Shown here: positions 22,467 through 36,371 of the stretch, in pieces
How positions within the stretch are numbered: the first letter of the stretch is position 1
Layout of the letters: each line of letters starts with the position of its first letter
Source of the DNA: Erythrobacter sp.
Lineage (GTDB): Bacteria; Pseudomonadota; Alphaproteobacteria; Sphingomonadales; Sphingomonadaceae
Assembly: GCF_024305245.1 (NCBI RefSeq)
Contig: NZ_JAMWYX010000002.1
Coordinates: 320,264 to 384,263 of the forward strand
Length of the DNA stretch: 64,000 bases
Direction: 5' to 3'
Made by a program: the position numbers and the translations under genes
Notes under the pieces: generated by a model
Told to the model about the DNA's origin: nothing
Seen by the model: the letters and a program-made list of their open reading frames with translations, nothing else
The model's database searches: none

Positions 22467-22516
22467 GTAAAGAGCTCTTGACTGACAAGAGCTCTTTACA
22501 GTAAAGAACTCTTGTC
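22467..22516. promoter_or_regulatory. Three tandem 16-bp palindromic operators at exact 17-bp spacing
   Basis: GTAAAGAGCTCTTGAC (22467), GACAAGAGCTCTTTAC (22484), GTAAAGAACTCTTGTC (22501); consensus half-site G(T/A)(A/C)AAGAG. Confidence 0.75.
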
Positions 22517-22518
22517 AG
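22514..22518. repeat. Left target-site duplication GTCAG of the Mu-like element
   Basis: Identical GTCAG follows the right end at 36283..36287. Confidence 0.8.
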
Positions 22519-22966
22519 TGTTAGGTGACAAGAGTTTCTGGAGTGTCGCCGAGCGGGATTATGCGGGATTTCCCGGGCTTCCGCGAGTGGGAAGTGGCGG
22601 TTTTCTGCGGGGTTGCGGAGAAGGCCTCTAAAAATTGGCGTTTTCGTTCTGTGTCTAGAGTCATGGTTGATTTAGACGATGATCTGCCAAGACCGGCTGG
22701 AGTGGGCCATTCTGATGAAGTCAGCCCCTTAGAGCTTCTCAGGCGCGGAAATCCGCCATTTGTGGGTGTATAAGAAGCATCTTAAGGCCGCCTCAGTGGC
22801 CTTTGAAAGGCTTGTGAACCGGGACAGAACTGGGACATTTCAGATAACGATAGTCTGGAAGGGGGCTGCTCGCCATGTGATGCGCAGAAATCCTTGCGTT
22901 TAGGTGCTGAACGATCCGCCGGTGACGGGCAACGTGATCAGATTGAAGTGGGCAAGTTTTTCGTGA

Positions 22967-23293
22967 TTAGGAGCCTCTGATGCCAAGCACCATTGCTTGC
23001 GCGTCGGCGTGCGCTTGAGCTGCGGCTGATGGGCCGCATCGATTGCTAAGCTCGTAGAGAGTGCGGCCCGCTTGATCGACCTCGACATCCGCTTTCTGCT
23101 GCATCATTTGCCGCAATTCCGAGGAGCTGGCGGCAGTCGAAATATGCTGGTCTGCAAGCAGGCCAATGGCGAAGGCGCGGTAGTCCTGCTTAAGGTTGCT
23201 GCAGACGCGCCATTCGTTGGCGAAGTAGCCACCGGTGCCGATCGCCAGGGCACCCGCTATGCCGGCCGCGATCATTCCTGCCTTGCCTGCCAT
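22967..23293 (-). CDS. Hypothetical small membrane protein (phage)
   Basis: N-terminal TM (MIAAGIAGALAIGTGGYFA); abuts the repressor gene on the same strand. Confidence 0.6.
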   Translation of the reverse strand: MAGKAGMIAAGIAGALAIGTGGYFANEWRVCSNLKQDYRAFAIGLLADQHISTAASSSELRQMMQQKADVEVDQAGRTLYELSNRCGPSAAAQAHADAQAMVLGIRGS

Positions 23294-23294
23294 T

Positions 23295-23978
23295 TCAGAG
23301 CCTCCTCACGACTGCGATGACGCGGCCTATCACATGGAGCTCGCCATCGACAGCTGTCTGGGGTCGGACCAGGTGATTGTCGCTGTGAAGCTCGACTGTG
23401 CCATCCGGCCTGTGGCGCAGTCGCTTTATCATGCCGATCTCGCCATGCGTGACGGCCCAGATCCCGTCATCCATGCGCGGCGTGTCTTGCGAGCGGTCGA
23501 TCAGGATCACCTCTCCGCTTCGAATAGTCGGTTCCATGCTGTCGCCGTCGCCGATGGCCCAAAACAGGTGCCTGGGTGCGGTGCTGGTGATCGAGCGCAG
23601 CCATTCGCGCGAGAATGGCCGACGCTCGACCTCGACCGGCCCGTCCGCGAAAGTCCCTCCCATGCCATAGCGAAGGTCGATCTGTTCAAGCTCGACGGTG
23701 TCGGTGTCGGAGGTGCGTGGCGGCATCATATGATCAGGATGGTTGAAAGTAAGGCGAGTCTCGTTGGCGCCAAGCTTCGGCCAGCCAGAAAAACTGGGAT
23801 AGGCCGCCTGCAGTTTCTCGAGCGTGCTCTGGCTGAGGCGGGTCTGAGCCGTACCATTGAAATGCCGATTAATGGTTGACGCTGCCAACTTGGCTGCCCG
23901 CGCCACCTCAGCGGGGGTTTTGGCCGAATACCGGACCAACGCGCGGATGAGCGCTGCATCATTTTCAAGCCCGTCCAT
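23295..23978 (-). CDS. Phage repressor, HTH plus S24 (LexA-like) peptidase domain
   Basis: GDSMEPTIRSGEVILIDRS and GEIGMIKRL motifs; HTH region KTPAEVARAAKLAASTINRHFNG; divergent from a Cro/Ner-like gene. Confidence 0.88.
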   Translation of the reverse strand: MDGLENDAALIRALVRYSAKTPAEVARAAKLAASTINRHFNGTAQTRLSQSTLEKLQAAYPSFSGWPKLGANETRLTFNHPDHMMPPRTSDTDTVELEQIDLRYGMGGTFADGPVEVERRPFSREWLRSITSTAPRHLFWAIGDGDSMEPTIRSGEVILIDRSQDTPRMDDGIWAVTHGEIGMIKRLRHRPDGTVELHSDNHLVRPQTAVDGELHVIGRVIAVVRRL

Positions 23979-24016
23979 GGAGCAGCGATAGCGCTCTCCG
24001 GTTAGCAATCTAAATT

Positions 24017-24057
24017 GCATTATTGATATTGCAGAATGGCATTATAACTAATAATGC
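24017..24057. promoter_or_regulatory. Putative repressor/Ner operator region
   Basis: AT-rich intergenic region between divergent regulators with inverted GCATTATT (24017) / AATAATGC (24050) and an intervening GGCATTAT. Confidence 0.55.
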
Positions 24058-24063
24058 TAACCC

Positions 24064-24312
24064 ATGGATCAGCAAACAGTCATTCAGGACATCGCGAAAC
24101 GGGCGAAAGCCTCGCGCATCTCGATTGCGGAGCTCTGCCGCCGCGCCGGGATACATCCAGTCACCTTCCACAACTGGAAGAAGACCGATCGGAACCCGGA
24201 ACCGCCGGGCGCGAACCTGCATTCGATCGGGGCGCTTTATCGCGAGCTCGACAAGATCGATGCCGAGGACACCAAGCGGCTTTCGCGCCGCGGCAAGGCG
24301 GTGGCGGCATGA
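24064..24312 (+). CDS. Ner/Cro-like HTH regulator
   Basis: DIAKRAKASRISIAELCRRAGIHPVTFHNWKKTDRNPEP HTH; divergent from the repressor. Confidence 0.75.
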   Translation: MDQQTVIQDIAKRAKASRISIAELCRRAGIHPVTFHNWKKTDRNPEPPGANLHSIGALYRELDKIDAEDTKRLSRRGKAVAA

Positions 24313-24734
24313 GCGCCATTCTTGCTGAGGGCCTGCAGGATGTCGGCTTTGCCGATCGCGGCGTGATCCCTCTGGTGCTGCGCCGCATCGCGCTGCGCGC
24401 AGCCACATCGCGCACTCGCGTATCAGTCGAGGCACTTCTCGACCTCCTGAATCAGCAGCGCGAGCCGCTGTCCGGCGATCGGGCGCCCCTGCGCAAGAAG
24501 GGCCTCGGCCTGCCCGTCAGCTATGATGAGTGTGGCTTTGAGCGCTGTGCGATCAGCGCTGCCGAGCGCGACGCACTGCGCGAGGACGAGCTGCTGCAAG
24601 GCGTAAAGCTGGTCGCGCAGCTGCTCGATCGCATTGATGTCGGAATTCGGCATGGGCTGTTCTCCTGTGTTGGCGATCAGGAGGCTACCGCGCCGGATGA
24701 GGGCGCGCATCGTCTATGTGGGGGTGCGAAATGA
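24309..24734 (+). CDS. Hypothetical phage protein (strand assignment uncertain)
   Basis: ATGA overlap with upstream gene; conflicts with a plausible antisense ORF at 24423..24653. Confidence 0.35.
   Translation: MSAILAEGLQDVGFADRGVIPLVLRRIALRAATSRTRVSVEALLDLLNQQREPLSGDRAPLRKKGLGLPVSYDECGFERCAISAAERDALREDELLQGVKLVAQLLDRIDVGIRHGLFSCVGDQEATAPDEGAHRLCGGAK
24423..24653 (-). CDS. Hypothetical small protein (alternative to the plus-strand ORF)
   Basis: MPNSDINAIEQLRDQLYALQQLVLAQCVALGSADRTALKATLIIADGQAEALLAQ..., helical protein-like composition. Confidence 0.4.
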   Translation of the reverse strand: MPNSDINAIEQLRDQLYALQQLVLAQCVALGSADRTALKATLIIADGQAEALLAQGRPIAGQRLALLIQEVEKCLD

Positions 24735-25732
24735 ACGCTGCCCCGCTGCTCGCCAGCTCGCAGCTGCTGGAGCTTTCGCCGAACGATATCTCGATCCCCG
24801 AGCGGATCGGTTTCCTGCATGAGGACAAAGCCGCGGCGCTCGGTCGCCTGATGGCGGTCGATGGCCAGCGCGATCCGATCAAGGTGGCACGCAATCTGCC
24901 GAGCAAGACGGTCGAGGCCTGCGTCGCCGAGGGCAAAAAGCCTTGGCGGCTCGTCACCGGCATGCACCGTCTGATGGGTGCCACGTATGAGGGTATTACG
25001 GTCTTCGGGCTCGAGGTGAAGGGTAAGCCCGAAGACCTCGCGGATCTGGAGGCGTCCGAAAATAGGCACCGTCGCCCGCTTGGGTTGATCGAACGCGCCA
25101 AGTTCACCGCTGCGTTGGTGACAGCAGCGCAAGAGCGGATCGCCCGCGCGCACGGAAATCTTGACCAGTATCAGCGCGGCGCGAAGGCCCGTTGGGACCG
25201 TGTGAGGCACCTCGAAGAGACGGCTGAGTCGGTACTTAGGGACGAGACCGAGGATGCTTGTGCCACGATGGCACAAGCATATGGATGGGAAGAATCGGTC
25301 GGCGAAGCACTCGATATGTCGCGGCGCACAATACATCGAGATTTGGCGCTTTCCCGTCTCGTCATTGAGCCGTTTCCCGACCTTGCTGAGGCGCTGGCGA
25401 AACATCCGGTAGCAGGTAACAACGGCAAACAGCTCAAAGACCTAGCAGAGCTTAAGGATGAGGGCGTACGCCGCCGCGTGATTGAGGCACTGCTGGCCGA
25501 TCCCGAGATCGGCGTCGAGGATGCCAAGATTGCGGCGGGCGTGGACGGCTTCAAGCCGCTGGCGACCCCGGTGGCGCACCAGAAGTACATCAACGCCGTG
25601 GTCGGCAATATGGGGCGTCTGTCTCCCAGCCAGATCAAGCAGCACTTGCCGGAAATCGTCCGCGCGCTTGGAACGCCCGATGCAAAGCGCCGCATGCGAG
25701 ACCTCCTGAACGAGGAGTTGGGAGATGCCTGA
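24731..25732 (+). CDS. ParB/sulfiredoxin-like nuclease-domain protein (phage)
   Basis: Near GMHRLMGATYEGI...FGLEVKGKPEDLADLEASENRHRRPLGLIERAKF: ParB-like core (GxHR, ExxENxxR). Confidence 0.72.
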   Translation: MNAAPLLASSQLLELSPNDISIPERIGFLHEDKAAALGRLMAVDGQRDPIKVARNLPSKTVEACVAEGKKPWRLVTGMHRLMGATYEGITVFGLEVKGKPEDLADLEASENRHRRPLGLIERAKFTAALVTAAQERIARAHGNLDQYQRGAKARWDRVRHLEETAESVLRDETEDACATMAQAYGWEESVGEALDMSRRTIHRDLALSRLVIEPFPDLAEALAKHPVAGNNGKQLKDLAELKDEGVRRRVIEALLADPEIGVEDAKIAAGVDGFKPLATPVAHQKYINAVVGNMGRLSPSQIKQHLPEIVRALGTPDAKRRMRDLLNEELGDA

Positions 25733-26006
25733 CCGGCGCAGGATCACTGACGTTACGGGCCTCGCGCAGGTGCATGTAAATTATCGCGATGCGCTGCGTC
25801 CGATAGTTCGCGAACCGCTGCGCTTCGATATCATCTGGAGCGACTTGATCGTTGACGCTCTCTCTCTTGTGACTGCGGACGAAATAGAGGCTGCGCTCCT
25901 TAGGGCTGGGAAGCAACCAGCGGTCGCCGGTCATGTTTCAAATGTACTGGCGCTCTTCGAGCTTACCGCAGATCCGACCGAGGAGGGCCTCGACGATGCG
26001 CGGTGA
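25725..26006 (+). CDS. Hypothetical phage protein
   Basis: Overlaps flanking genes in operon-like fashion. Confidence 0.5.
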   Translation: MPDRRRITDVTGLAQVHVNYRDALRPIVREPLRFDIIWSDLIVDALSLVTADEIEAALLRAGKQPAVAGHVSNVLALFELTADPTEEGLDDAR

Positions 26007-26691
26007 AATCTCATCAGGCAAGCATTCGAAGCGCCACCCGCTCGACTGGTATGTCGACGAGTTCTGGTGCGCGGACCAATTGGCGCTTGCGCTGGGCAAT
26101 CTCGAGCTCGAACGCGAGGAAGGCCTTGCAGTCTGGGATCCATGCTGCGGCATGGGCAACACGCTGCTTGCGGCGCACGATCGCGGTCTGGTCACCTATG
26201 GCTCCGACCTCGTCGAGAACGTCGCCTATGCCAATTTCGGCTCGGGCTCGCCGATGATTTTCCAGCCCGGCGATTTCCTCGAGACGACTGTAGCGCCAGC
26301 GCCCTGCAGCATCATCTTCAACCCGCCTTACAGCTATGTAAAGGGCATCGCAGAGGCGTTTGCGCGACATGCGCTGACCCTCTCGTCGCGCCGGGTGTGC
26401 ATCCTGATGCCGAGCAAGTGGCTCGCCAGTCAGGCGCGGTACCAGCTGTTCACCGATCACCCGCCGCAGGCGGTGCTGCACCTGTGCCAGCGGCCCTCGA
26501 TGCCGCCGGGCGACATGATCGCGGCGATGGGCAACCGCGCATTCAGCGGCGGGATGACCGATTACTGCTGGATCGTGTGGGACGTGAAGCGCCCGACCGC
26601 GCCTGGCCAGACGCGAACCATCTGGCTGCCACCGCTCCACCGCAATTCCGAAATCCTTTCACTCGAGGAGGCGCTCAATGTCAGCGCGTAA
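25996..26691 (+). CDS. DNA N6-adenine methyltransferase-like protein
   Basis: VWDPCCGMGNTLLAAHDRG (SAM motif I) and SIIFNPPYSYVKG (NPPY motif IV). Confidence 0.75.
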   Translation: MRGEISSGKHSKRHPLDWYVDEFWCADQLALALGNLELEREEGLAVWDPCCGMGNTLLAAHDRGLVTYGSDLVENVAYANFGSGSPMIFQPGDFLETTVAPAPCSIIFNPPYSYVKGIAEAFARHALTLSSRRVCILMPSKWLASQARYQLFTDHPPQAVLHLCQRPSMPPGDMIAAMGNRAFSGGMTDYCWIVWDVKRPTAPGQTRTIWLPPLHRNSEILSLEEALNVSA

Positions 26692-26797
26692 GAAGCTTTG
26701 CATCTGGTTGCTTTCAGCAGCTGCTGGGTGGGCCATCCTGATCGGAACCGGCCGCGCTCTGTCCGCCAGCGCGCGATATGTCTGGGGGACGCTGTAA
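26678..26797 (+). CDS. 39-aa membrane microprotein
   Basis: MSARKKLCIWLLSAAAGWAILIGTGRALSASARYVWGTL; stop/start overlap TAATG with next ORF. Confidence 0.5.
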   Translation: MSARKKLCIWLLSAAAGWAILIGTGRALSASARYVWGTL

Positions 26798-26904
26798 TGG
26801 AGCGCCTCGACTTCGTTCAAATCCTGCTGGCGCTGGCCATGACGATCATCATCGCACCGGGCGTGATCTGGTGGGCGCTGATCCTGTGGGAGTTGGCGCA
26901 ATGA
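26797..26904 (+). CDS. 35-aa membrane microprotein
   Basis: MERLDFVQILLALAMTIIIAPGVIWWALILWELAQ; ATGA overlap with next ORF. Confidence 0.5.
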   Translation: MERLDFVQILLALAMTIIIAPGVIWWALILWELAQ

Positions 26905-27179
26905 TCACGATTCCCGCCCGCCAGCAGGATGCCCTGCGGTTCATCACCGGCTATCTCAAAGCCAAGGGCTATGGCCCCAGCTATCGCGAGATCGGTGCTG
27001 GCATCGGCGTGCGAAGCAAGCATTCGGTCGCGCGCCTCATCGTTGAGCTTGAAAAGGGTGGGCACCTGTGCCGGCTGCCGGGCCGCGAACGTTCAATCCG
27101 TGTTCTGACGCACCTTCCAGTCCCGCGCGCGCCCGATGGCGAGCCGCTGCACTTTGTGCGGATCGGAGTGCCGGTCTGA
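26901..27179 (+). CDS. LexA-type winged-helix DNA-binding-domain protein lacking a peptidase domain
   Basis: IPARQQDALRFITGYLKAKGYGPSYREIGAGIGVRSKHSVARLIVELEKGGHLCRLPGRERSI resembles the LexA N-terminal domain. Confidence 0.72.
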   Translation: MITIPARQQDALRFITGYLKAKGYGPSYREIGAGIGVRSKHSVARLIVELEKGGHLCRLPGRERSIRVLTHLPVPRAPDGEPLHFVRIGVPV

Positions 27180-27400
27180 TGGCGCTTTATCCCATTGAAC
27201 GCGCGGTGCTCGATCGGCACGATGGCGGCGAAAGCGTAGACCAGATCGTTCGAGCGACGGGTTTCCGGCGCTCGACCGTGCAGAACATCGTCCACCGGTT
27301 CGCCGTCAATCTTCGGCAGGACGCGAAGCGGGAGAATGATCTGCGCGAGCAGACGGCTCGCCTGGGTAATCTCGTCCTCGCTGCGGGAGGGCACCGCTGA
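27179..27400 (+). CDS. Small HTH protein
   Basis: LDRHDGGESVDQIVRATGFRRSTVQNIVHRF HTH pattern; TGATG coupling. Confidence 0.6.
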   Translation: MALYPIERAVLDRHDGGESVDQIVRATGFRRSTVQNIVHRFAVNLRQDAKRENDLREQTARLGNLVLAAGGHR

Positions 27401-27624
27401 TGTCCCGCCTTACCCCCGGAGAGCAGGCGGTAATGAGCCGCTTTGAGCTTGGCTATTCGGCGAGCGATATCGCCTGCGATCTCGATATTTCGACCGCCCG
27501 GGCGGCGGCGATCATCTCAACCTACGACGACAACCCGGCGCATGATCGCCACCGCGAGGCGCTGATCAAGCGTGGCTCGCAGCGGCTCCTCGCGCGCCTT
27601 CGCAAAGCAGGAGGACACCGCTGA
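27400..27624 (+). CDS. Small HTH protein
   Basis: MSRFELGYSASDIACDLDISTARAAAIISTY, sigma-70 region 4-like HTH; TGATG coupling; C-terminus GGHR shared with the preceding ORF. Confidence 0.6.
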   Translation: MSRLTPGEQAVMSRFELGYSASDIACDLDISTARAAAIISTYDDNPAHDRHREALIKRGSQRLLARLRKAGGHR

Positions 27625-27875
27625 TGCCGCGTTTTGCCAGCCATGCCGAGTACTGCCGCCACCACCGCAAGGTGTTCGAGCTCGCGCTCGAGCTCGGCGT
27701 CACGCCGATCGAGGCCGAAGCGCGGATGAAGGCCGTCGAAGCGCGCGAGAAGCACCGCGCGAAGATCGCGCAGCGCGGTCGGATGCAATCGGCCCTGCCG
27801 CCGCTGAGCCTGCGCGCCGAGGATCACCCGGGCGACTTCAAGCGCTGGGATGCGCCATGGATGGTGAGGGACTGA
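27624..27875 (+). CDS. Hypothetical phage protein
   Basis: TGATG coupling to the upstream gene. Confidence 0.55.
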   Translation: MPRFASHAEYCRHHRKVFELALELGVTPIEAEARMKAVEAREKHRAKIAQRGRMQSALPPLSLRAEDHPGDFKRWDAPWMVRD

Positions 27876-27878
27876 GCG

Positions 27879-28304
27879 ATGGTCGCCTATTCATTCGCCC
27901 CTCAATTTATCGAGCCGATCGTGGCGCGCACCAAAAGGCAGACGGTTCGCGCCGAACGCCGTCGCCATGCGCGTGAGGGCGAGGCGATCCAGCTCTATAC
28001 TGCAATGCGCACCAAGCAGTGCCGCAAACTCATTGAGCCGGACCCCGTCTGCATCGGTGTCCATCCGATAACAATTGCCATCGACGCGCAGGCCGAGCAG
28101 CTGATCACCAGCATGACGGTGGGGCATATCACCCTCAGCGACGTTGGTATCGAACGGTTTGCCGAGCGCGATGGGTTCGCGACGCTTGCCTCAGGCTTTG
28201 CCCGTCGCCGGATGGGTGCTTTCTGGCTGAAAGCCCACGCTGAGCCGGGTGCTCGCTGGCTCGAATTTGAGGGCGTCGTGATCCGCTGGGGTTGGCCAGA
28301 GTGA
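27879..28304 (+). CDS. ASCH/PUA-like domain phage protein
   Basis: VAYSFAPQFIEPIVARTKRQTVRAERRRHAREGEAIQLYTAMRTKQCRKL. Confidence 0.5.
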   Translation: MVAYSFAPQFIEPIVARTKRQTVRAERRRHAREGEAIQLYTAMRTKQCRKLIEPDPVCIGVHPITIAIDAQAEQLITSMTVGHITLSDVGIERFAERDGFATLASGFARRRMGAFWLKAHAEPGARWLEFEGVVIRWGWPE

Positions 28305-28579
28305 GCGACCTCTACATCACTCGCCATGCCATCAGTCGCTATCGCGAGCGCGTCGCTGACGTACCGCCTGCAGCGATCTGGCGCGCGCTCGATTGCCCGG
28401 CTGTCCGCATCGCGATCCAGCTGGGCGCGCGATACGTCCGGCTCTCGGGCGGCCAGCGCGCTGTTCTGCAAGAGAACCGCGTCATCACCATCCTGCCGCG
28501 CGATCATCACGCCAACCTGCTGCGCCGTGATCGTGACGCTGAATATGACAGCAACGGGGAGGCCAATGCCCAAGGCTAA
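28301..28579 (+). CDS. Hypothetical phage protein
   Basis: GTG start overlapping the upstream gene; ITRHAISRYRERVADVPPAAIWRAL. Confidence 0.5.
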   Translation: MSDLYITRHAISRYRERVADVPPAAIWRALDCPAVRIAIQLGARYVRLSGGQRAVLQENRVITILPRDHHANLLRRDRDAEYDSNGEANAQG

Positions 28580-29021
28580 GGCCCATCCCGGTCAGCTCGG
28601 CTTCGACTTCGCGGCTCCCGCGCCTTCCAAGGGTGTGGCGGAGCTAGCGGGGCTCGAGCGGCAAATTAATGCGCTCGTCGGCACCGTGCTGGCCAGCGAC
28701 GGCCGCCCGCGCGAAGTGATCGCGGCCGAGATGAGCGTGCTGCTCGACGACACTGTCAGCCGCTCGATGCTCGATGCCTATTCCAGTCCTGCGCGCACCG
28801 AACACAAGGTTCCCGCATCACGCCTGTTTGCGCTGCTGGTGGTGACCGATCGGCAGGATCTGCTCGATCCGATCATGCGCAAGCTCGGCGCCGCGCTGCT
28901 GGTCGGCGAGGAAGTGAAGACCGCCCGCCTCGGCCACCTGCAGCAGCTGATCCGGGCTGCGCAGGACGAGATGAAGACCCTCAAGAACGATGCGCCGCAA
29001 ATCCGGGAAGGCAACGAATAA
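28566..29021 (+). CDS. Hypothetical Mu-like phage early protein, immediately upstream of the transposase start
   Basis: Complete ORF with its stop overlapping the downstream ATG (TAATG); GFDF motif, coiled-coil-like C-terminus. Confidence 0.6.
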   Translation: MPKAKAHPGQLGFDFAAPAPSKGVAELAGLERQINALVGTVLASDGRPREVIAAEMSVLLDDTVSRSMLDAYSSPARTEHKVPASRLFALLVVTDRQDLLDPIMRKLGAALLVGEEVKTARLGHLQQLIRAAQDEMKTLKNDAPQIREGNE

Positions 29022-29287
29022 TGGCCACCAGCGCCCAAGACCTGATCCCGATGGAAGACGCCGCATGGTTCACCGCGTCGGAACTGGAGGATCTCGGCCT
29101 GCCCGGCCTGCCCGGTGATAAACGCTCGATCAACCGGCGCGCGCAGGCCGAACGTTGGGCCTCGCGCGTCGGGCCCGATATCCGATTCTGCGGGCAGGTC
29201 GTTATCGCCTGCGCTACTGGATCAAGACCACCGGCTTCACAGGTGACGGAACTCGCTTCGTTTTTCGTTCTAGTGCCGGAGGAATAG
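29021..29287 (+). pseudogene. MuA-like transposase, N-terminal DNA-binding domain only (truncated by deletion)
   Basis: DAAWFTASELEDLGLPGLPGDKRSINRRAQAERW resembles the Mu transposase N-terminal winged-helix; homology-like sequence stops near residues 49-59 and the tail is out-of-frame readthrough. Confidence 0.8.
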
Positions 29288-30807
29288 TTTCCACCCCAGC
29301 GGGCACCGTCTTGAGAGGGCAGGGCCTCGATTGGGCTGAAATCGACACTTACCTTACACTGCCGACCGCCTTGGCAGATGCAGCGCCGGGCTTCGATATT
29401 CTTGGCACCGATGGCGGCACACAGCCCCGCATCTACGGCATGTCGCTTGTGTACGACCCCACCGGGGACATCACCATCGATGGTAGCGGTGTGCTTTCCG
29501 GCATCGGTACCAGCAACATCGTGGTCGATAACCGGCAGGTTCCCATCGGCGCGAACGCAGTCGTCAACAGCGAGTTCACACGGGGCAAGTTCGGGTGGCG
29601 GTGGCGTGGCGGCGGTTTCGAGAGCGAATGGGGAGTCAACCTCCCTACATGGTTCGGTCAACGCAACGTCATCTGGGCGCGCATACCCGGCACGGTTGCC
29701 ATTGGCGTTTCAGCCGACCTTTCGCCCGATGCTCTTTGGGGCGGTGGCAGCCTCGCCAATGCCCCGCTGTTCGCCATGCCTGTCGCGCCAGGGGACAGGC
29801 TCATTGCCAGCGTCCTTGCGGCAGAGCACCGCTGCACATTCCAGCTTTATATCCTGATCTTCGATGGTGCCGGGTCGCTTATCGGCGCTCCAGTTGTCGG
29901 CAACGGCACCCCGCTCGGTGCTGCCAATGGCGACCCAGCCAACTTCACACGTCTCTCTGTCTTTCAAAATTCTGCCCCTGCCAATTCGCGCTGGGCCATC
30001 CCCATGATTCGCCTGCTCGGAACCGGCGGAACCGACCCCTACATCTTCTTCACCGAGCCGATGTTGTCGAAGGTCGCGCAGGGACAGACGGTGGTCCCAC
30101 CTTACGTCCCCGGCAGGGCTGACCCAAACGCAGACGTGACCGCCACGGCGCAGCGCAGCATCGTCCCGCAATTCCCGGTCATTGAGATCAAGCAGGGCGA
30201 GGCCGGCAGTGTCGGCAACGGCAACCGCACCGTGACCCATGTTGCCAAGCGAGCCTTGGAAACGCTGACAGGTGGGACTTGGGATGAAGTTTCCCAGAAT
30301 GTCGGAACAGGGACGGTCGGCATCAATGCCAGCACCGGCTTGGCGACGATCGCCAACATCAGCATCTCTGGCGCATACGTCATCAAATACATCCACACAG
30401 ACGGCATCGAAACCGAACACCCCGTCAATGTCCTCTATGTCCCCGCGCCGCCTGCCGCTGGTGCGTCGGTGCAGACTGTCGGTTTCCAGCAGATCATCAC
30501 CAAGGCGCTCGAAAACGGCTCAGGCGTCTTCCTCAACGCTCAGCTCGCCCGATTGGCTGGCGGCAACAGCGGGACGATCACTTGCCGCATCGAACGGCGG
30601 GAACTTGGCGTCGGAACGTGGACAACCGCATTCGACGGGCCCGGTTCGTTCATCAGCGCCAGTGAGCCTGGCTCAGACTTCGCCAGCGGCACATTCGTCA
30701 ACACGACCGGATCGAAGCGCGTCTTCGAATTCCGGATGACCGAGGTTCGCTCGCCCGGAACGGCGGGCGGCGCACAAGTAGCATCCCAAACTTTTCTGGA
30801 AGGATAA
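29165..30807 (+). pseudogene. C-terminal part of a phage tail/host-specificity protein (5' truncated)
   Basis: Open frame entered mid-domain (GRYRLRYWIKTTGFTGDGTRFVFR...); carbohydrate-binding and Ig-like architecture; ends VASQTFLEG. No plausible own N-terminus. Confidence 0.75.
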
Positions 30808-30811
30808 GACC

Positions 30812-30940
30812 ATGAAGAACCTGATCGTAATCGCCGCCCTCGTTGCCCTCTCGGCCTGCGAGCCTGCCAGCGAACCGCGCCCCGAGCCGACGCTCGTGCC
30901 GATCGAGAACGAATGCCCTGAAGGCGAAGTCTGCCCCTGA
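30812..30940 (+). CDS. 42-aa phage lipoprotein
   Basis: MKNLIVIAALVALSACEPASEPRPEPTLVPIENECPEGEVCP; lipobox LSAC. Confidence 0.65.
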   Translation: MKNLIVIAALVALSACEPASEPRPEPTLVPIENECPEGEVCP

Positions 30941-30972
30941 TCCGTCGCCGCGAGCTGAGCAGGAGAGACATT

Positions 30973-31542
30973 ATGGCAAGACGCAAGAAGACCAGCATTA
31001 TCGCCCCATCAGACGCCGCTGAGGCGGCGCTGATGATCTGCGAATACGTCCAGCTCGATCGGGACCAGGCGCTCGAGAAGCTCGCGGCCGAGGATGCGAT
31101 CGACCGGATCAAGGCGCAGCGCGACAACCGGCTGCGGCAGCTGGAGGCGCAGGCCGCCGATCTGTTCGCTGGCGTGAAGGCCTGGTGGGAAGCCGGCGGG
31201 AAAGACGAGCTCGCCAAGGGCAAGCGCTCGGCCGAGGTCGGCGGCGCGAAGATCGGCATCCGCCTTACCCCGGCGGCGGTCAAGCTGGTGCGCGGCGTGA
31301 AGGCCGATGCGGTTGTCAGCTGGCTGAAGGGCATGCGCTGGTCCCGCGCGAAGGACTTTCTGCGGACCAAGACCGAACTCGACAAGCAGGCGGTGATCAA
31401 GGCGGTGCAGGCGGATGAGGCGATTGCCACTCGTTTCGCCAAGCACCTGACTGTCCGGCAGGTCGACGAATTCTTCATCGACACCGGCCTCGACGAGGAC
31501 GCGCTTCGCAAGGAAGCGGCCGCCTCGAGCCCGGCCATCTGA
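30973..31542 (+). CDS. Mu Gam-like host-nuclease inhibitor
   Basis: RIKAQRDNRLRQLEAQAADLFAGVKAWWEAGGKDELAKGKRSAEVGGAKIGIRLTPAAVKLVRG... Gam-family pattern. Confidence 0.8.
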   Translation: MARRKKTSIIAPSDAAEAALMICEYVQLDRDQALEKLAAEDAIDRIKAQRDNRLRQLEAQAADLFAGVKAWWEAGGKDELAKGKRSAEVGGAKIGIRLTPAAVKLVRGVKADAVVSWLKGMRWSRAKDFLRTKTELDKQAVIKAVQADEAIATRFAKHLTVRQVDEFFIDTGLDEDALRKEAAASSPAI

Positions 31543-31564
31543 CCCACTTCGAAAGGAAACGACC

Positions 31565-32086
31565 ATGGTGTCAATTCGCCATAATCCACCCGCTCCCGGC
31601 ACCGGACTGCTGGCGCGGTCGGCATACAACGCGGATCACGATGTGCCCGTCGCTACGCAGGCCGAGGCTGAAGCGGGTACGGCGACCGACAAGCTCATGA
31701 CCCCGCAGCGGACGGCGCAGGCAATCGCTGTCCTCGGGGCAAGCGGCACACCGGGCGCAGATGGAGCAGACGGTGCCGATGGCTTGTCGGCATACGAGGT
31801 TGCGGTTGCGGCGGGCTTTGTCGGGAATGAGGCTGCTTGGCTGGCCTCTCTTGTAGGCGAGCAAGGGCCGCAGGGGGAGCCGGGTGCTGATGGTGCGGAC
31901 GGGGCACAAGGCATACAGGGCATACAGGGCATCCAGGGCGAACCCGGTGCGGATGGCGCAGATGGAGCGCCCGGTGCAGACGGTGCTGATGGCCAAAGCG
32001 TAACGATCACCACGTTCACCGATGAAGCTCTGTTCAACGCTGCCACACCCGGCGCGCTCGAATTGCTGGTGCTGACCGATGCCTAA
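31565..32086 (+). CDS. Collagen-like tail fibre protein
   Basis: GEQGPQGEPGADGADGAQGIQGIQGIQGEPGADGADGAPGADGADG, G-X-Y repeats. Confidence 0.8.
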   Translation: MVSIRHNPPAPGTGLLARSAYNADHDVPVATQAEAEAGTATDKLMTPQRTAQAIAVLGASGTPGADGADGADGLSAYEVAVAAGFVGNEAAWLASLVGEQGPQGEPGADGADGAQGIQGIQGIQGEPGADGADGAPGADGADGQSVTITTFTDEALFNAATPGALELLVLTDA

Positions 32087-33833
32087 GCTGAACCTGCGCG
32101 CGGCCCTCCGTATCAAAGCCGCATCTGGCGAGGTGCTGGCGCTCAAGGGTACGGGGTTCTCATGGACGCGCCCATCGCTGGCGCGCGTCGTCTTCTCAGA
32201 ACTCGGTGACAGCCTCGTGCCGTCGAGAGGCACCGAGAATCTTGATGCCAACCGTGTGCTGGGAACCAATCCGCTCCCAACCAACGCTGCGCAGTTCGTA
32301 AATAACAACTTCGCTGGGGTCGGATTCCCGTTCGAGCAAATTGTCGAATCCGCAGGGCCGATCTGGCATCCTGATGGTGCCGATGGGGTCGGTCGAATCT
32401 CACCCAACGAGCGTATGCTGATTGACTATCAGGCTCTGGCTGGCGGCAAAGTCGGAGTCATTCCGCTTGCTACTGGCGGCTCGTCGCTTCAGGTGGGCTG
32501 GAACGTCGACACCGGGAGTATACTTGCCGCCCGCACGGCCTCGCACAACCTCGCGATGAGTCGGTTTGAGACATTCGATGGAGTCGCACCTATCGTCGGC
32601 GCGGTCGGAATCTCTTTGGGGTCAAACGACAACCAGCCAAAGAGCGTTGTCAAAGCTTGGATGGTCGACCTCGTTGCGCACGTCCGCGCCAACTTTAACG
32701 GTGTAGGGCCTACTACCCCAATCATCCTCTCCGGGCCTGCCAAGGGCGGTTTGGGTGGCGGCCCTGATTACCGCGCGGCCTACGAAGAGATTGCGGCTGA
32801 GACTCCGTATGTGTTCGTGGAGCATCCAGTTTGGCCGACTGCCGACCCTGAAAACCTGCATCCCACGCTTGCCGAGAACAACATTTGGGGCGCTGCTAAG
32901 GCTGTGATGGCGTTTAGTGGCCAAGCGACTCCAACTTGGAATACGCAGGTGGCTCAAGGCTCCTTCCCCGGCGAGCAGATTTCGATTCCACTCTCGCACT
33001 CAGGTCTGTTCGACGCGAGCAAATACGGTTTCGCCGTCATCACGGGTGGGGCCAATGCAGCCGAGTTCGAGGTTGCCGGGACTTGGCCGAATCAGGTGCT
33101 TCGCTGGGCCGGTAACGGAACTGGCCCAGTCGCCGGTAACTACGAAGTCGAGGTGTCCATTCGACTCAGTAACCAGTCGGTGGTAGCACCTCGAACATTC
33201 CAGCACGCAGTTGTGACTCGCTCGACTGTTATCTCGGCTGCTCATTCCCAGACCAACTTCAAGGCATCGAGTGGTTTCGCCACCGACACAGTCACAGGCG
33301 TGGTTCTCAAGCCGGGGCTGAACATCATTTCGATGCTTGCCGGAAGTGGCACTCCCAGAGCCGGGATTGCTTTGACCATCGCAGGTAACGCGGCCACGCT
33401 GCTGCACACTGCATCGACGGGGAACCACTTTGCGACGTTCGGCTTCGAGTCGGCCATCGAAACCACGGTCGACTTGGTGTTCACTTGGACAACGGGCACC
33501 ATAAGCAACTTGGTATACTCGACGAGCGTAGTGGCTGGAGTTCAGGCCACACCTGCCTCGACCGAGGCCAAGGGTTGGGGAAGTGCTTCGGCGCATTCGA
33601 CTCCATCACAAACCCTGCCAGTGGGCGGCCTGATCTTCGCGCAGTTTATCGGAAACTCCAACGCCTCCGACCCGTCTCCCGGTGCGGGCTGCACTCTGCG
33701 TGGTTTCCAGCGGGCTGGTTCTGGACATTACGGCGCGGCGTTGACTCGCGACTCAACCGGGGTGTCTACTCTCAACGTCTCCCCCGGCGCGTTCGGCGCG
33801 CTGGTCAGCTTTGCGCTTAATCCGCTGGCCTAA
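32079..33833 (+). CDS. Phage tail fibre with GDSL/SGNH hydrolase-like domain
   Basis: GDSL near the N-terminus (FSELGDSLVPSRG), GVISLGSNDN-type block (VGISLGSNDNQPKS), NLHPTLAENN as a possible catalytic His block. Confidence 0.65.
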   Translation: MPKLNLRAALRIKAASGEVLALKGTGFSWTRPSLARVVFSELGDSLVPSRGTENLDANRVLGTNPLPTNAAQFVNNNFAGVGFPFEQIVESAGPIWHPDGADGVGRISPNERMLIDYQALAGGKVGVIPLATGGSSLQVGWNVDTGSILAARTASHNLAMSRFETFDGVAPIVGAVGISLGSNDNQPKSVVKAWMVDLVAHVRANFNGVGPTTPIILSGPAKGGLGGGPDYRAAYEEIAAETPYVFVEHPVWPTADPENLHPTLAENNIWGAAKAVMAFSGQATPTWNTQVAQGSFPGEQISIPLSHSGLFDASKYGFAVITGGANAAEFEVAGTWPNQVLRWAGNGTGPVAGNYEVEVSIRLSNQSVVAPRTFQHAVVTRSTVISAAHSQTNFKASSGFATDTVTGVVLKPGLNIISMLAGSGTPRAGIALTIAGNAATLLHTASTGNHFATFGFESAIETTVDLVFTWTTGTISNLVYSTSVVAGVQATPASTEAKGWGSASAHSTPSQTLPVGGLIFAQFIGNSNASDPSPGAGCTLRGFQRAGSGHYGAALTRDSTGVSTLNVSPGAFGALVSFALNPLA

Positions 33834-34087
33834 TGCGATTCGTCCCATCACCCTTGCCCCCCAACTCGCAGCTGGTGCGGGTGTGCGATGGCGACGGGCC
33901 TGAATATTCTCGGCTGATCGTCGTCACGGTGGAAGGTGACTGCCTGTTCTTGCAGGGCTGGCTCGGATTCCCGTTAACGGTGGAGCAGTGGAGAGCCGGG
34001 GCAGCAGAGCATTTCAAGGATGCCAAGCGCGTTCTCTACTGGCGGTTCAGGAACGGTAAGTTCGTGTTGGTGGAGTTGATGCTGTGA
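33833..34087 (+). CDS. Hypothetical phage protein
   Basis: TAATG coupling to the fibre gene. Confidence 0.55.
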   Translation: MRFVPSPLPPNSQLVRVCDGDGPEYSRLIVVTVEGDCLFLQGWLGFPLTVEQWRAGAAEHFKDAKRVLYWRFRNGKFVLVELML

Positions 34088-34206
34088 GCAATCTCGCCCG
34101 GCTGATCCTCTCCCGCGCCAAGCACCAATGCGATCTTTGCGCCCTGAGCCTGTTTCTCAACGTCCTGCAATTCGGCCTGATCATGGCCTTGCATTTGAAG
34201 GGATAG
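34084..34206 (+). CDS. Hypothetical 40-aa protein
   Basis: GTG start: VSNLARLILSRAKHQCDLCALSLFLNVLQFGLIMALHLKG. Confidence 0.4.
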   Translation: MSNLARLILSRAKHQCDLCALSLFLNVLQFGLIMALHLKG

Positions 34207-34209
34207 CTG

Positions 34210-34599
34210 ATGCTGTTCGATCCTGAGCTTTTCGACCCGCCGCTTTTCGAAACGGAGGGCGCAGTAACCATCGCGCCAGATCCGATCTTCACCGTGACCC
34301 GCACCGATGCCGGCACGCCCTTCACCTTCACCGCCCCGATCAAGGATCCCGACAGTATCGAGCTGCACGGCATGGACTGGTCGGGCTGGCTGCAGGAGGG
34401 TGATACAATCACTGCGCGGGAAGTGTTCGCGGACATCGAGGGTGTCACGATCGATCAGGTGGCCGACGCTGGCGGCATTGTGTCCTGGCGCATTCAGGGC
34501 GGCGAGGTCGGGCAAGACTACATAATCACCTGCCGTATTACGTCGAGCAGTGGATTGCTCGACGATCGGAGCGTGCGCGTCCCCGTTCGGCCGCGATAA
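34210..34599 (+). CDS. Hypothetical phage protein, possibly fibre-tail adaptor
   Basis: LFDPELFDPPLFETEGAV...DQVADAGGIVSWRIQGGEVGQDYIITCRITSSSGLLDDRSVRVPV; beta-rich, in the fibre operon. Confidence 0.5.
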   Translation: MLFDPELFDPPLFETEGAVTIAPDPIFTVTRTDAGTPFTFTAPIKDPDSIELHGMDWSGWLQEGDTITAREVFADIEGVTIDQVADAGGIVSWRIQGGEVGQDYIITCRITSSSGLLDDRSVRVPVRPR

Positions 34600-34631
34600 G
34601 AATTCCCGCCCTTGTGAAAACGGGGGTGGCC

Positions 34632-34722
34632 GGGGCGTTGGACGCGCCCCGAACCGCGAGAGGGGGCTCTCGCACCTTGGGCCGTCATGACCGGCCCGTC
34701 GGCTCCCCCGGCCGCAAGCGGC
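34632..34722 (+). other. Four consecutive GC-rich hairpins in the leader of the Dam-like gene
   Basis: GGGGCG..CGCCCC (34632-34650); GCGAGAG-GGGG-CTCTCGC (34656-34673); GGGCCG..CGGCCC (34679-34697); GCCG-CAAG-CGGC (34711-34722). Confidence 0.55.
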
Positions 34723-34745
34723 GGAGCAGCGTTAGGTGCAGAACC

Positions 34746-35537
34746 ATGAAAGAAGAATTGACGCCAGTTCGCCCTGTCTAGCCGGTAGCCCCATGGCTCG
34801 GCGGTAAGCGCATCCTCGCCCGCCGGATCGGCGAGCGGATCACCGCCACTCCCCACACCCGCTATGTCGAGCCCTTCGTGGGCATGGGAGGCGTCTTCTT
34901 CCGCCGATCGGCGCGGCCGAAGCTGGAGGTGATCAACGACGTGAATCGCGATGTCGTTACCCTCTTCCGGATCCTGCAGCGGCACTACCAGCAGATGCTC
35001 GATGTGCTGAAGTTCCAGCTCTACAGCCGCGCCGATTTCGAGCGGCTGCGCGCCACTCCGGCCGACCAGCTGACCGACCTCGAGCGGGCAGCACGATTCC
35101 TCTACCTGCAGAAGACCGGCTTCGGTGGGATGGCGCGCACGTTCGGCATCGACTTCTCACGGCCGCGCTGGAGCCTCAGCAAGCTGGAGCCGATGCTCGA
35201 GGCGGTTCACGAGCGGCTCGAGGACGTGCTGATTGAGTGTCTCGACTTCGGCACCTGCATCGAGCGGTACGACAGCCGGCCTGGGACGCTGTTCTATTGC
35301 GACCCGCCCTACTGGGGGCATACGGACGACTATGGGAAGGACATCTTCTCACCGGATGATTTTGAGCGTCTGAGAGACCTCTTAGGCGGTCTTCAGGGGC
35401 GCTTTATATTGTCGATCAACGACCGCCCGGAAGTGCGCGAGCTATTCGCCGGCTTCGATATGGAGGAGGTTTCCCTCAACTATCAGGTCAGCGGGAAGGT
35501 GACTCCGGCACGGGAGCTGATAATCTCGGGGCCATGA
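34746..35537 (+). pseudogene. Dam-like DNA adenine methyltransferase interrupted by in-frame amber TAG at codon 12
   Basis: MKEELTPVRPV*PVAPWLGGKRILARRIGERI...YVEPFVGMGGVFFRR...LFYCDPPYWGH; TAG at 34779..34781, otherwise open. Confidence 0.75.
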
Positions 35538-35551
35538 AGGAGAAGCTGATG

Positions 35552-35773
35552 ACCAACACTTATGAGACGCTCGTTGCCGAAATTGTGACCTTGCTCGGTG
35601 AGAACAGGGCGGTGACCGTGTGCACCGCCACGGGAAAGATCAAGCTCGCCCACGCCTTCGTGCATGACCATGATCCCAACCTTCTGACGGGGACCACCGC
35701 AAATGAGCGAGGAGTCCTGATCCATGGGTCGGCAATCTCAGCGGTGCTTATTGACGAGAACGACGATGATTGA
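35552..35773 (+). CDS. Hypothetical phage protein
   Basis: MTNTYETLVAEIVTLLGENRAVTVCTATGKIKLAHAFVHDHDP... Confidence 0.5.
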   Translation, partial: TNTYETLVAEIVTLLGENRAVTVCTATGKIKLAHAFVHDHDPNLLTGTTANERGVLIHGSAISAVLIDENDDD

Positions 35774-36200
35774 GGCGACGGAGGGAGCCGTGGGCTCGGA
35801 TCGTAGGGGGAATGACATCTACGACCGCAGCCTGTGGCCAACGCCTGAATCAAACCCGATCGTGATCCTGCTGAAGCGGGGAGACGACTGGTACTCGAAC
35901 AAGGAGATCGTCGCTGCGCTCGGCTTGAGCCCCAATCGAGCTCTGCTGAGCAATTCCGCGGCTCGGTTCTCGCGGGAGATATTGCCAGAGGACACTGCGG
36001 TGGCAGGAAGGCGGGGGCTTGTGGGTACGAGCCGGATCAGCGCGGCGCACGGTGGATCGGAAAGGCTCTTCAGCCGTCGGGGGCTGGTGTTGGCTGCGAT
36101 GAGGACTGACACCGTCAATGCAGCCGCCTTCAGGGACTGGTTGGCATCGGAGGCAGCGGACATTGCATTCGTGCCCCAGCTGTCCCGCGCGGCCGGCTAA
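35766..36200 (+). CDS. Hypothetical phage protein, possible antirepressor/BRO-N-like
   Basis: ATGATTGA overlap with upstream gene; LFSRRGLVLAAMRTDTVNAAAFRDWLASEA resembles BRO-N C-terminal motifs. Confidence 0.45.
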   Translation: MIEATEGAVGSDRRGNDIYDRSLWPTPESNPIVILLKRGDDWYSNKEIVAALGLSPNRALLSNSAARFSREILPEDTAVAGRRGLVGTSRISAAHGGSERLFSRRGLVLAAMRTDTVNAAAFRDWLASEAADIAFVPQLSRAAG

Positions 36201-36282
36201 GGCGCTCCTGAGACCCTATTCAAGCCGCTTCGAGTGCTCCAATTACTCTTGTCAAATGTGCAGAAGCTCTTGTCCCGCTACA

Positions 36283-36287
36283 GTCAG
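36283..36287. repeat. Right target-site duplication GTCAG
   Basis: Identical to 22514..22518. Confidence 0.8.
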
Positions 36288-36371
36288 GTTCGAATCGCCG
36301 TCCACCGGGCGCAGAGGCCCGGCCGGACGAACGGATACAGCGAACCTAAACCGGAACTGCAGGGCACGAAT

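Follow-up and report, generated by a model that had tools for sequence, protein, structure and literature searches.

The window, by which we mean the whole 64,000-nucleotide stretch that was analysed (contig 12, 320264-384263), comes from a genome of a genus with mostly Erythrobacter among its named relatives. It carries a Mu-like prophage set between host genes, with the features collected in Table 1. From the left, a divergent regulatory region made up of a repressor and a Ner-like gene is followed by a ParB-like gene, a DNA methyltransferase and an early regulator, then by the first residues of a transposase that run into the end of a tail protein, and finally by Gam, a collagen-like fibre gene, a probable tail or fibre gene and a Dam-type methyltransferase. 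The nonsense codon in Dam was seen against the frames of E. tepidarius and Erythrobacter sp. WG, and this early in-frame stop suggests that general decay of the element has already begun.

Table 1. Features of the prophage and its boundaries (positions in the window)
Feature	Position	Strand	Basis
Target duplication GTCAG, left copy	22514-22518		Sequence; matched by 36283-36287
Left end, TGTTAGGTGACAAGAGTTTCTGGAGTG	22519-22545	+	Relatives' alignment begins here; end motif common to 4 relatives
Small protein adjoining repressor	22967-23293	-	tblastn, 29-50% identity to E. tepidarius and Erythrobacter sp. WG; also in G091 remnant
S24-type phage repressor	23295-24020	-	Pfam Peptidase_S24, 2e-17; 79% to Erythrobacter sp. 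WG phage
Ner-like HTH protein	24064-24312	+	HTH matches; 78% to E. ramosus
ParB-like protein	24716-25732	+	PHROG 3264, 1.3e-14; full-length in relatives
DNA methyltransferase	25933-26691	+	PHROG 799, 2.4e-39
Early regulator directly before A	28566-29021	+	PHROG 2345, 1.6e-28; 86% to E. ramosus
Truncated MuA transposase, ~57 N-terminal residues	29021-29191	+	Protein and PHROG matches; alignment
Deletion junction, bounded interval	29177-29194		Nucleotide alignment with 7 intact MuA genes; start of tail-protein frame
C-terminal tail protein remnant, ~540 of 1,600 residues	29192-30807	+	Matches to L074 and E. tepidarius
Gam-like end-protection protein, intact	30973-31542	+	Pfam Phage_Mu_Gam, 4.9e-14; PHROG 491, 1.1e-19; 55-74% in 7 relatives
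Collagen-like tail fibre protein	31565-32086	+	Pfam Collagen, 2.7e-12; tail-fibre PHROGs
Probable tail or fibre protein, unknown family	32079-33833	+	Position alone; Pfam and PHROG gave no match
Dam-type methyltransferase, early nonsense codon 34779-34781	34746-35537	+	PHROG 56, 2.5e-67; frame against relatives
Right end, reverse complement TGTAGCGGGACAAGAGCTTCTGCACATTTGACAAGAG, two end-type repeats	36245-36282	-	Comparison with relatives
Target duplication GTCAG, right copy	36283-36287		Sequence

Ends of the element and the host site

The left end reads 5'-TGTTAGGTGACAAGAG at 22519 and its inverted counterpart ends at 36282; the two ends have the TG...CA form and carry related, inverted terminal sequences whose motifs recur in relatives, and GTCAG stands on both sides as a flawless 5-bp target duplication. 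The alignment of relatives to the window starts at 22515-22519 on the left and stops at 36283-36293 on the right, and elsewhere the same end motifs are accompanied by other target duplications (ATCAT in E. ramosus, GCGAG in E. tepidarius and GAGGC in Erythrobacter sp. WG). The host locus consists of TamB, lysozyme, an HTH gene and a membrane-protein gene, in this order, and eight relatives have it without the prophage. In L115, one of the eight, the joined flanks give one unbroken alignment that starts ahead of lysozyme and takes in the HTH gene; in other relatives, too, the alignment crosses the insertion site. On the strength of these alignment limits, end motifs, the GTCAG pair and the empty sites, the prophage is 13,764 bp long (22519-36282), and its ends together with the 5-bp duplication show insertion by ordinary Mu-type transposition. 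A sequence-only reading of this DNA had held that both ends and the regulators were retained, and the end motifs, the GTCAG pair, the repressor, Ner, ParB and the other early genes bear this out.

At the left flank, an 18-bp inverted repeat (CTGACAAGAGCTCTTTAC / GTAAAGAACTCTTGTCAG, 22482-22518) is a conserved feature of the lysozyme-HTH interval in relatives, and the prophage sits at its edge, parting the repeat from the HTH gene; the control of this gene may be lost. The left-flank palindrome also shares TGACAAGAG with the phage end, which was read as coincidence, the motif being absent from the target flanks of three relatives. The right host flank resembles a tRNA T-arm, and aragorn run on the joined flanks gave no tRNA or tmRNA.

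The join between the transposase and tail genes

The first 57 residues of the ORF at 29021 are those of a MuA-type transposase, with 79% identity to the E. tepidarius MuA (E = 8e-23 and 3.9e-22 in two comparisons) and a match to PHROG 310, "transposase," at residues 12-50. Past this part, the ORF continues for 31 further codons of unrelated residues and closes with a stop whose last base is 29287, and an overlapping frame of 550 aa is open from 29155 to 30807. Residues 300-550 of the latter match residues 1354-1600, the very C-terminus, of a 1,600-aa tail protein on a viral contig (locus L074, E = 1.1e-93), residues 299-430 of the tail remnant are 61% identical to the E. tepidarius tail protein, and residues ~14-100 gave weak matches only. 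The tail gene lies directly upstream of Gam both in this element and in E. tepidarius.

In nucleotide alignment, seven intact MuA genes agree with the window until about 29180-29191 and none agrees beyond it; as judged by this comparison with relatives, the transposase and tail genes are shown to be joined. The sequence-only reading had recognised the N-terminal domain of a Mu transposase at 29021 and a switch of frame near 29165-29200 into a long tail protein, and both calls are upheld, the first by the 57-residue match and the second by the alignment break at ~29177-29191 and the match to the tail C-terminus. Its proposal to place the junction to the base by alignment to intact relatives succeeded in part: the junction was bounded to 18 nucleotides or so (Table 1), and no close parent phage, from which the exact base, any microhomology and the exact size of the deletion could be read, was found among the phages and viral contigs searched.

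Intact relatives and the missing interval

The gene order of the intact relatives is repressor-Ner-ParB-regulator-A-B-lysis-head-tail-Gam-Dam, with ends as in the window. The prophages of E. ramosus, E. tepidarius, E. colymbi and Erythrobacter sp. WG share with the window the left-end motif, the early gene order, the MuA N-terminus, Gam and Dam, and the three Erythrobacter relatives with both ends located also share the right-end motif and the 5-bp duplications; they differ from it in carrying a full MuA (~655 aa) and in measuring 36-40 kb where both ends could be placed. An inducible Mu-like prophage of ~37 kb reported from Citromicrobium JL354 (PMC3338782) is in line with these sizes. From the start of MuA to Gam, the intact relatives span about 28-33 kb versus about 2 kb here, and the loss computed against E. 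tepidarius is ~25 kb. In E. ramosus, the missing interval encodes MuA (655 aa), MuB, endolysin, terminase, portal, minor head, major head, tape measure and tail proteins, all annotated there.

Genes for the MuA (DDE) transposase and MuB are missing from the element, MuA being represented by its 57 N-terminal residues only. A protein search of the element's own genome found no second MuA (the same search found the full gene in eight relatives), and no Mu portal was found in this genome. A search of the family for the MuA C-terminal domain came back empty with its controls equally silent, and weight was therefore placed on the protein search. Since 57 residues of MuA are all that is left and the genome holds no other copy, the element is a defective derivative of a Mu-like transposable prophage and not a complete member. 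The earlier claim that the catalytic part of MuA had been lost is confirmed by these results; the accompanying claim that all head, portal and tail genes were absent agrees with the lack of a Mu portal in the genome and goes too far for the tail, of which the remnant, the collagen-like fibre gene (31565-32086) and the probable tail or fibre gene (32079-33833) remain.

In phage Mu, Gam belongs to the early region. In the present phage group, a Gam-like gene lies near Dam at the right end (30973-31542 here, and relatives L028-L039), and the suggestion that Gam behind the tail gene marks a second rearrangement was dropped, Gam-Dam being the normal right end in relatives. Between Gam and Dam, the window carries extra cargo at 31565-34599 (the collagen-like fibre, a 584-aa protein of unknown family and two small ORFs), where several relatives have a few hundred bases only.

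Origin and standing of the deleted prophage

We give a probability of about 0.9 to the account as a whole, according to which a D3112/B3-like Mu-like prophage, of a phage group that occurs in Erythrobacteraceae and other sphingomonads, was inserted by transposition, lost ~25 kb internally and is now defective and decaying. Ordinary Mu-type transposition inserted the prophage and duplicated GTCAG, as the ends and the duplication show. Comparison with relatives shows that a deletion of ~25 kb then or earlier fused codon ~57 of A, the transposase gene, to the final third of the tail gene; A, B and the particle genes were lost, whereas the two ends, Gam and the early genes, among them those for the repressor, Ner and ParB, stayed. 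The nonsense codon in Dam suggests decay under way. That one internal deletion explains the join is supported by the intact relatives, in which A lies close to the left end and the right end is made up of tail, Gam and Dam, although two or more successive deletions with the same net result would look identical. Deletion in place, rather than before insertion, is the simpler reading. Because genes for transposition, replication and particles are missing, the element is presumably incapable of transposition, replication and particle formation on its own. It may nevertheless protect its host against related phages through immunity, and a related phage that provided A and B could move and package its ends.

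The sequence-only reading had described a natural mini-Mu produced by one large internal deletion, and as anatomy this is sustained by the gene order of relatives, the two ends and the 5-bp duplication: against an intact relative there is a single internal gap with both ends kept. The label fits this anatomy, and transposition with MuA in trans may be possible. Mini-Mu systems need no more than the ends and a supply of the Mu transposition proteins in trans in order to transpose. Laboratory mini-Mu and Mud elements (a two-component mini-Mu system is described in PMC5847225) resemble the window element in keeping both ends and the regulatory region, in having their internal genes removed and in needing MuA in trans, but they were engineered and tested, whereas the present element is a natural deletion that may be mobile in trans. 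The D3112/MP29-type Pseudomonas phages share Mu-type transposition and, near their left end, a distant homologue of the early regulator (33% identity), but are functional, with complete genomes of about 37 kb. A literature search of partial coverage returned nothing specific on natural, internally deleted Mu-like prophages. The element is of a familiar kind, a defective and internally deleted Mu-like prophage that is real and cleanly placed, and taken alone it amounts to ordinary prophage decay; as a cleanly bounded natural counterpart of the laboratory mini-Mu, for which the ends, the target duplication, unoccupied host sites and intact relatives are all in hand, it could serve to ask whether deletion derivatives ever get mobilised in nature.

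Little probability attaches to a domesticated remnant whose superinfection immunity or first methyltransferase, for instance, benefits the host: the ORFs of the repressor and this methyltransferase are uninterrupted and reach all or nearly all of the length seen in relatives, but the insertion occurs in no second genome among those searched and Dam is interrupted. It is very improbable that the element works as a natural mini-Mu, with superinfecting Mu-like phages supplying A, B and particles and spreading it with attached host DNA. A collapse or misjoin of an intact prophage, with the 25 kb missing from the contig only, is highly improbable. The source genome (3.5 Mb, estimated 100% complete) is indeed in 24 contigs and the junction was judged from the assembly alone, but a misjoin is unlikely because the genome holds no second copy of the 14-kb region to drive one and none of the other contigs carries the missing MuA or portal; moreover, the join falls inside two unrelated genes.

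We give hardly any credence to a selected satellite, that is, a compact mini-Mu lineage keeping ends, immunity and Gam and drawing A, B and particles from the intact Mu-like phages that it parasitises. The two ends, Gam, the repressor-Ner region and the majority of early ORFs have indeed survived intact, but there is one copy in one genome, a broken Dam, no helper phage in the same genome, and no further compact member among 114 genus genomes or the other carriers in the family and GTDB contigs. Full-length MuA was found in all eight other genus genomes that carry the ParB gene and in 13 loci with early-region homologues; relatives with the same compact layout, named by the sequence-only reading as what would speak against it, were looked for and none was found, the other carriers of the early region that were examined having full-length MuA. 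A recurrent compact lineage separate from helper phages was not found in the genomes searched. The left-end pattern gave six matches in 401 family genomes, namely the window, a remnant in genome G091 and four further genomes, each with full-length MuA. The pattern for the right end was so strict that it missed even the window, and it has no bearing on absence. The G091 remnant (L106, C30 about 33660-34632) resembles the window in its left end and the gene beside the repressor, but comprises ~970 bp of matching phage DNA, with homology stopping inside a repressor gene that is truncated too and with neither ParB nor MuA. As the other carriers have full-length MuA and G091 holds only a left-end remnant, the comparison points to individual decay events rather than a satellite family.
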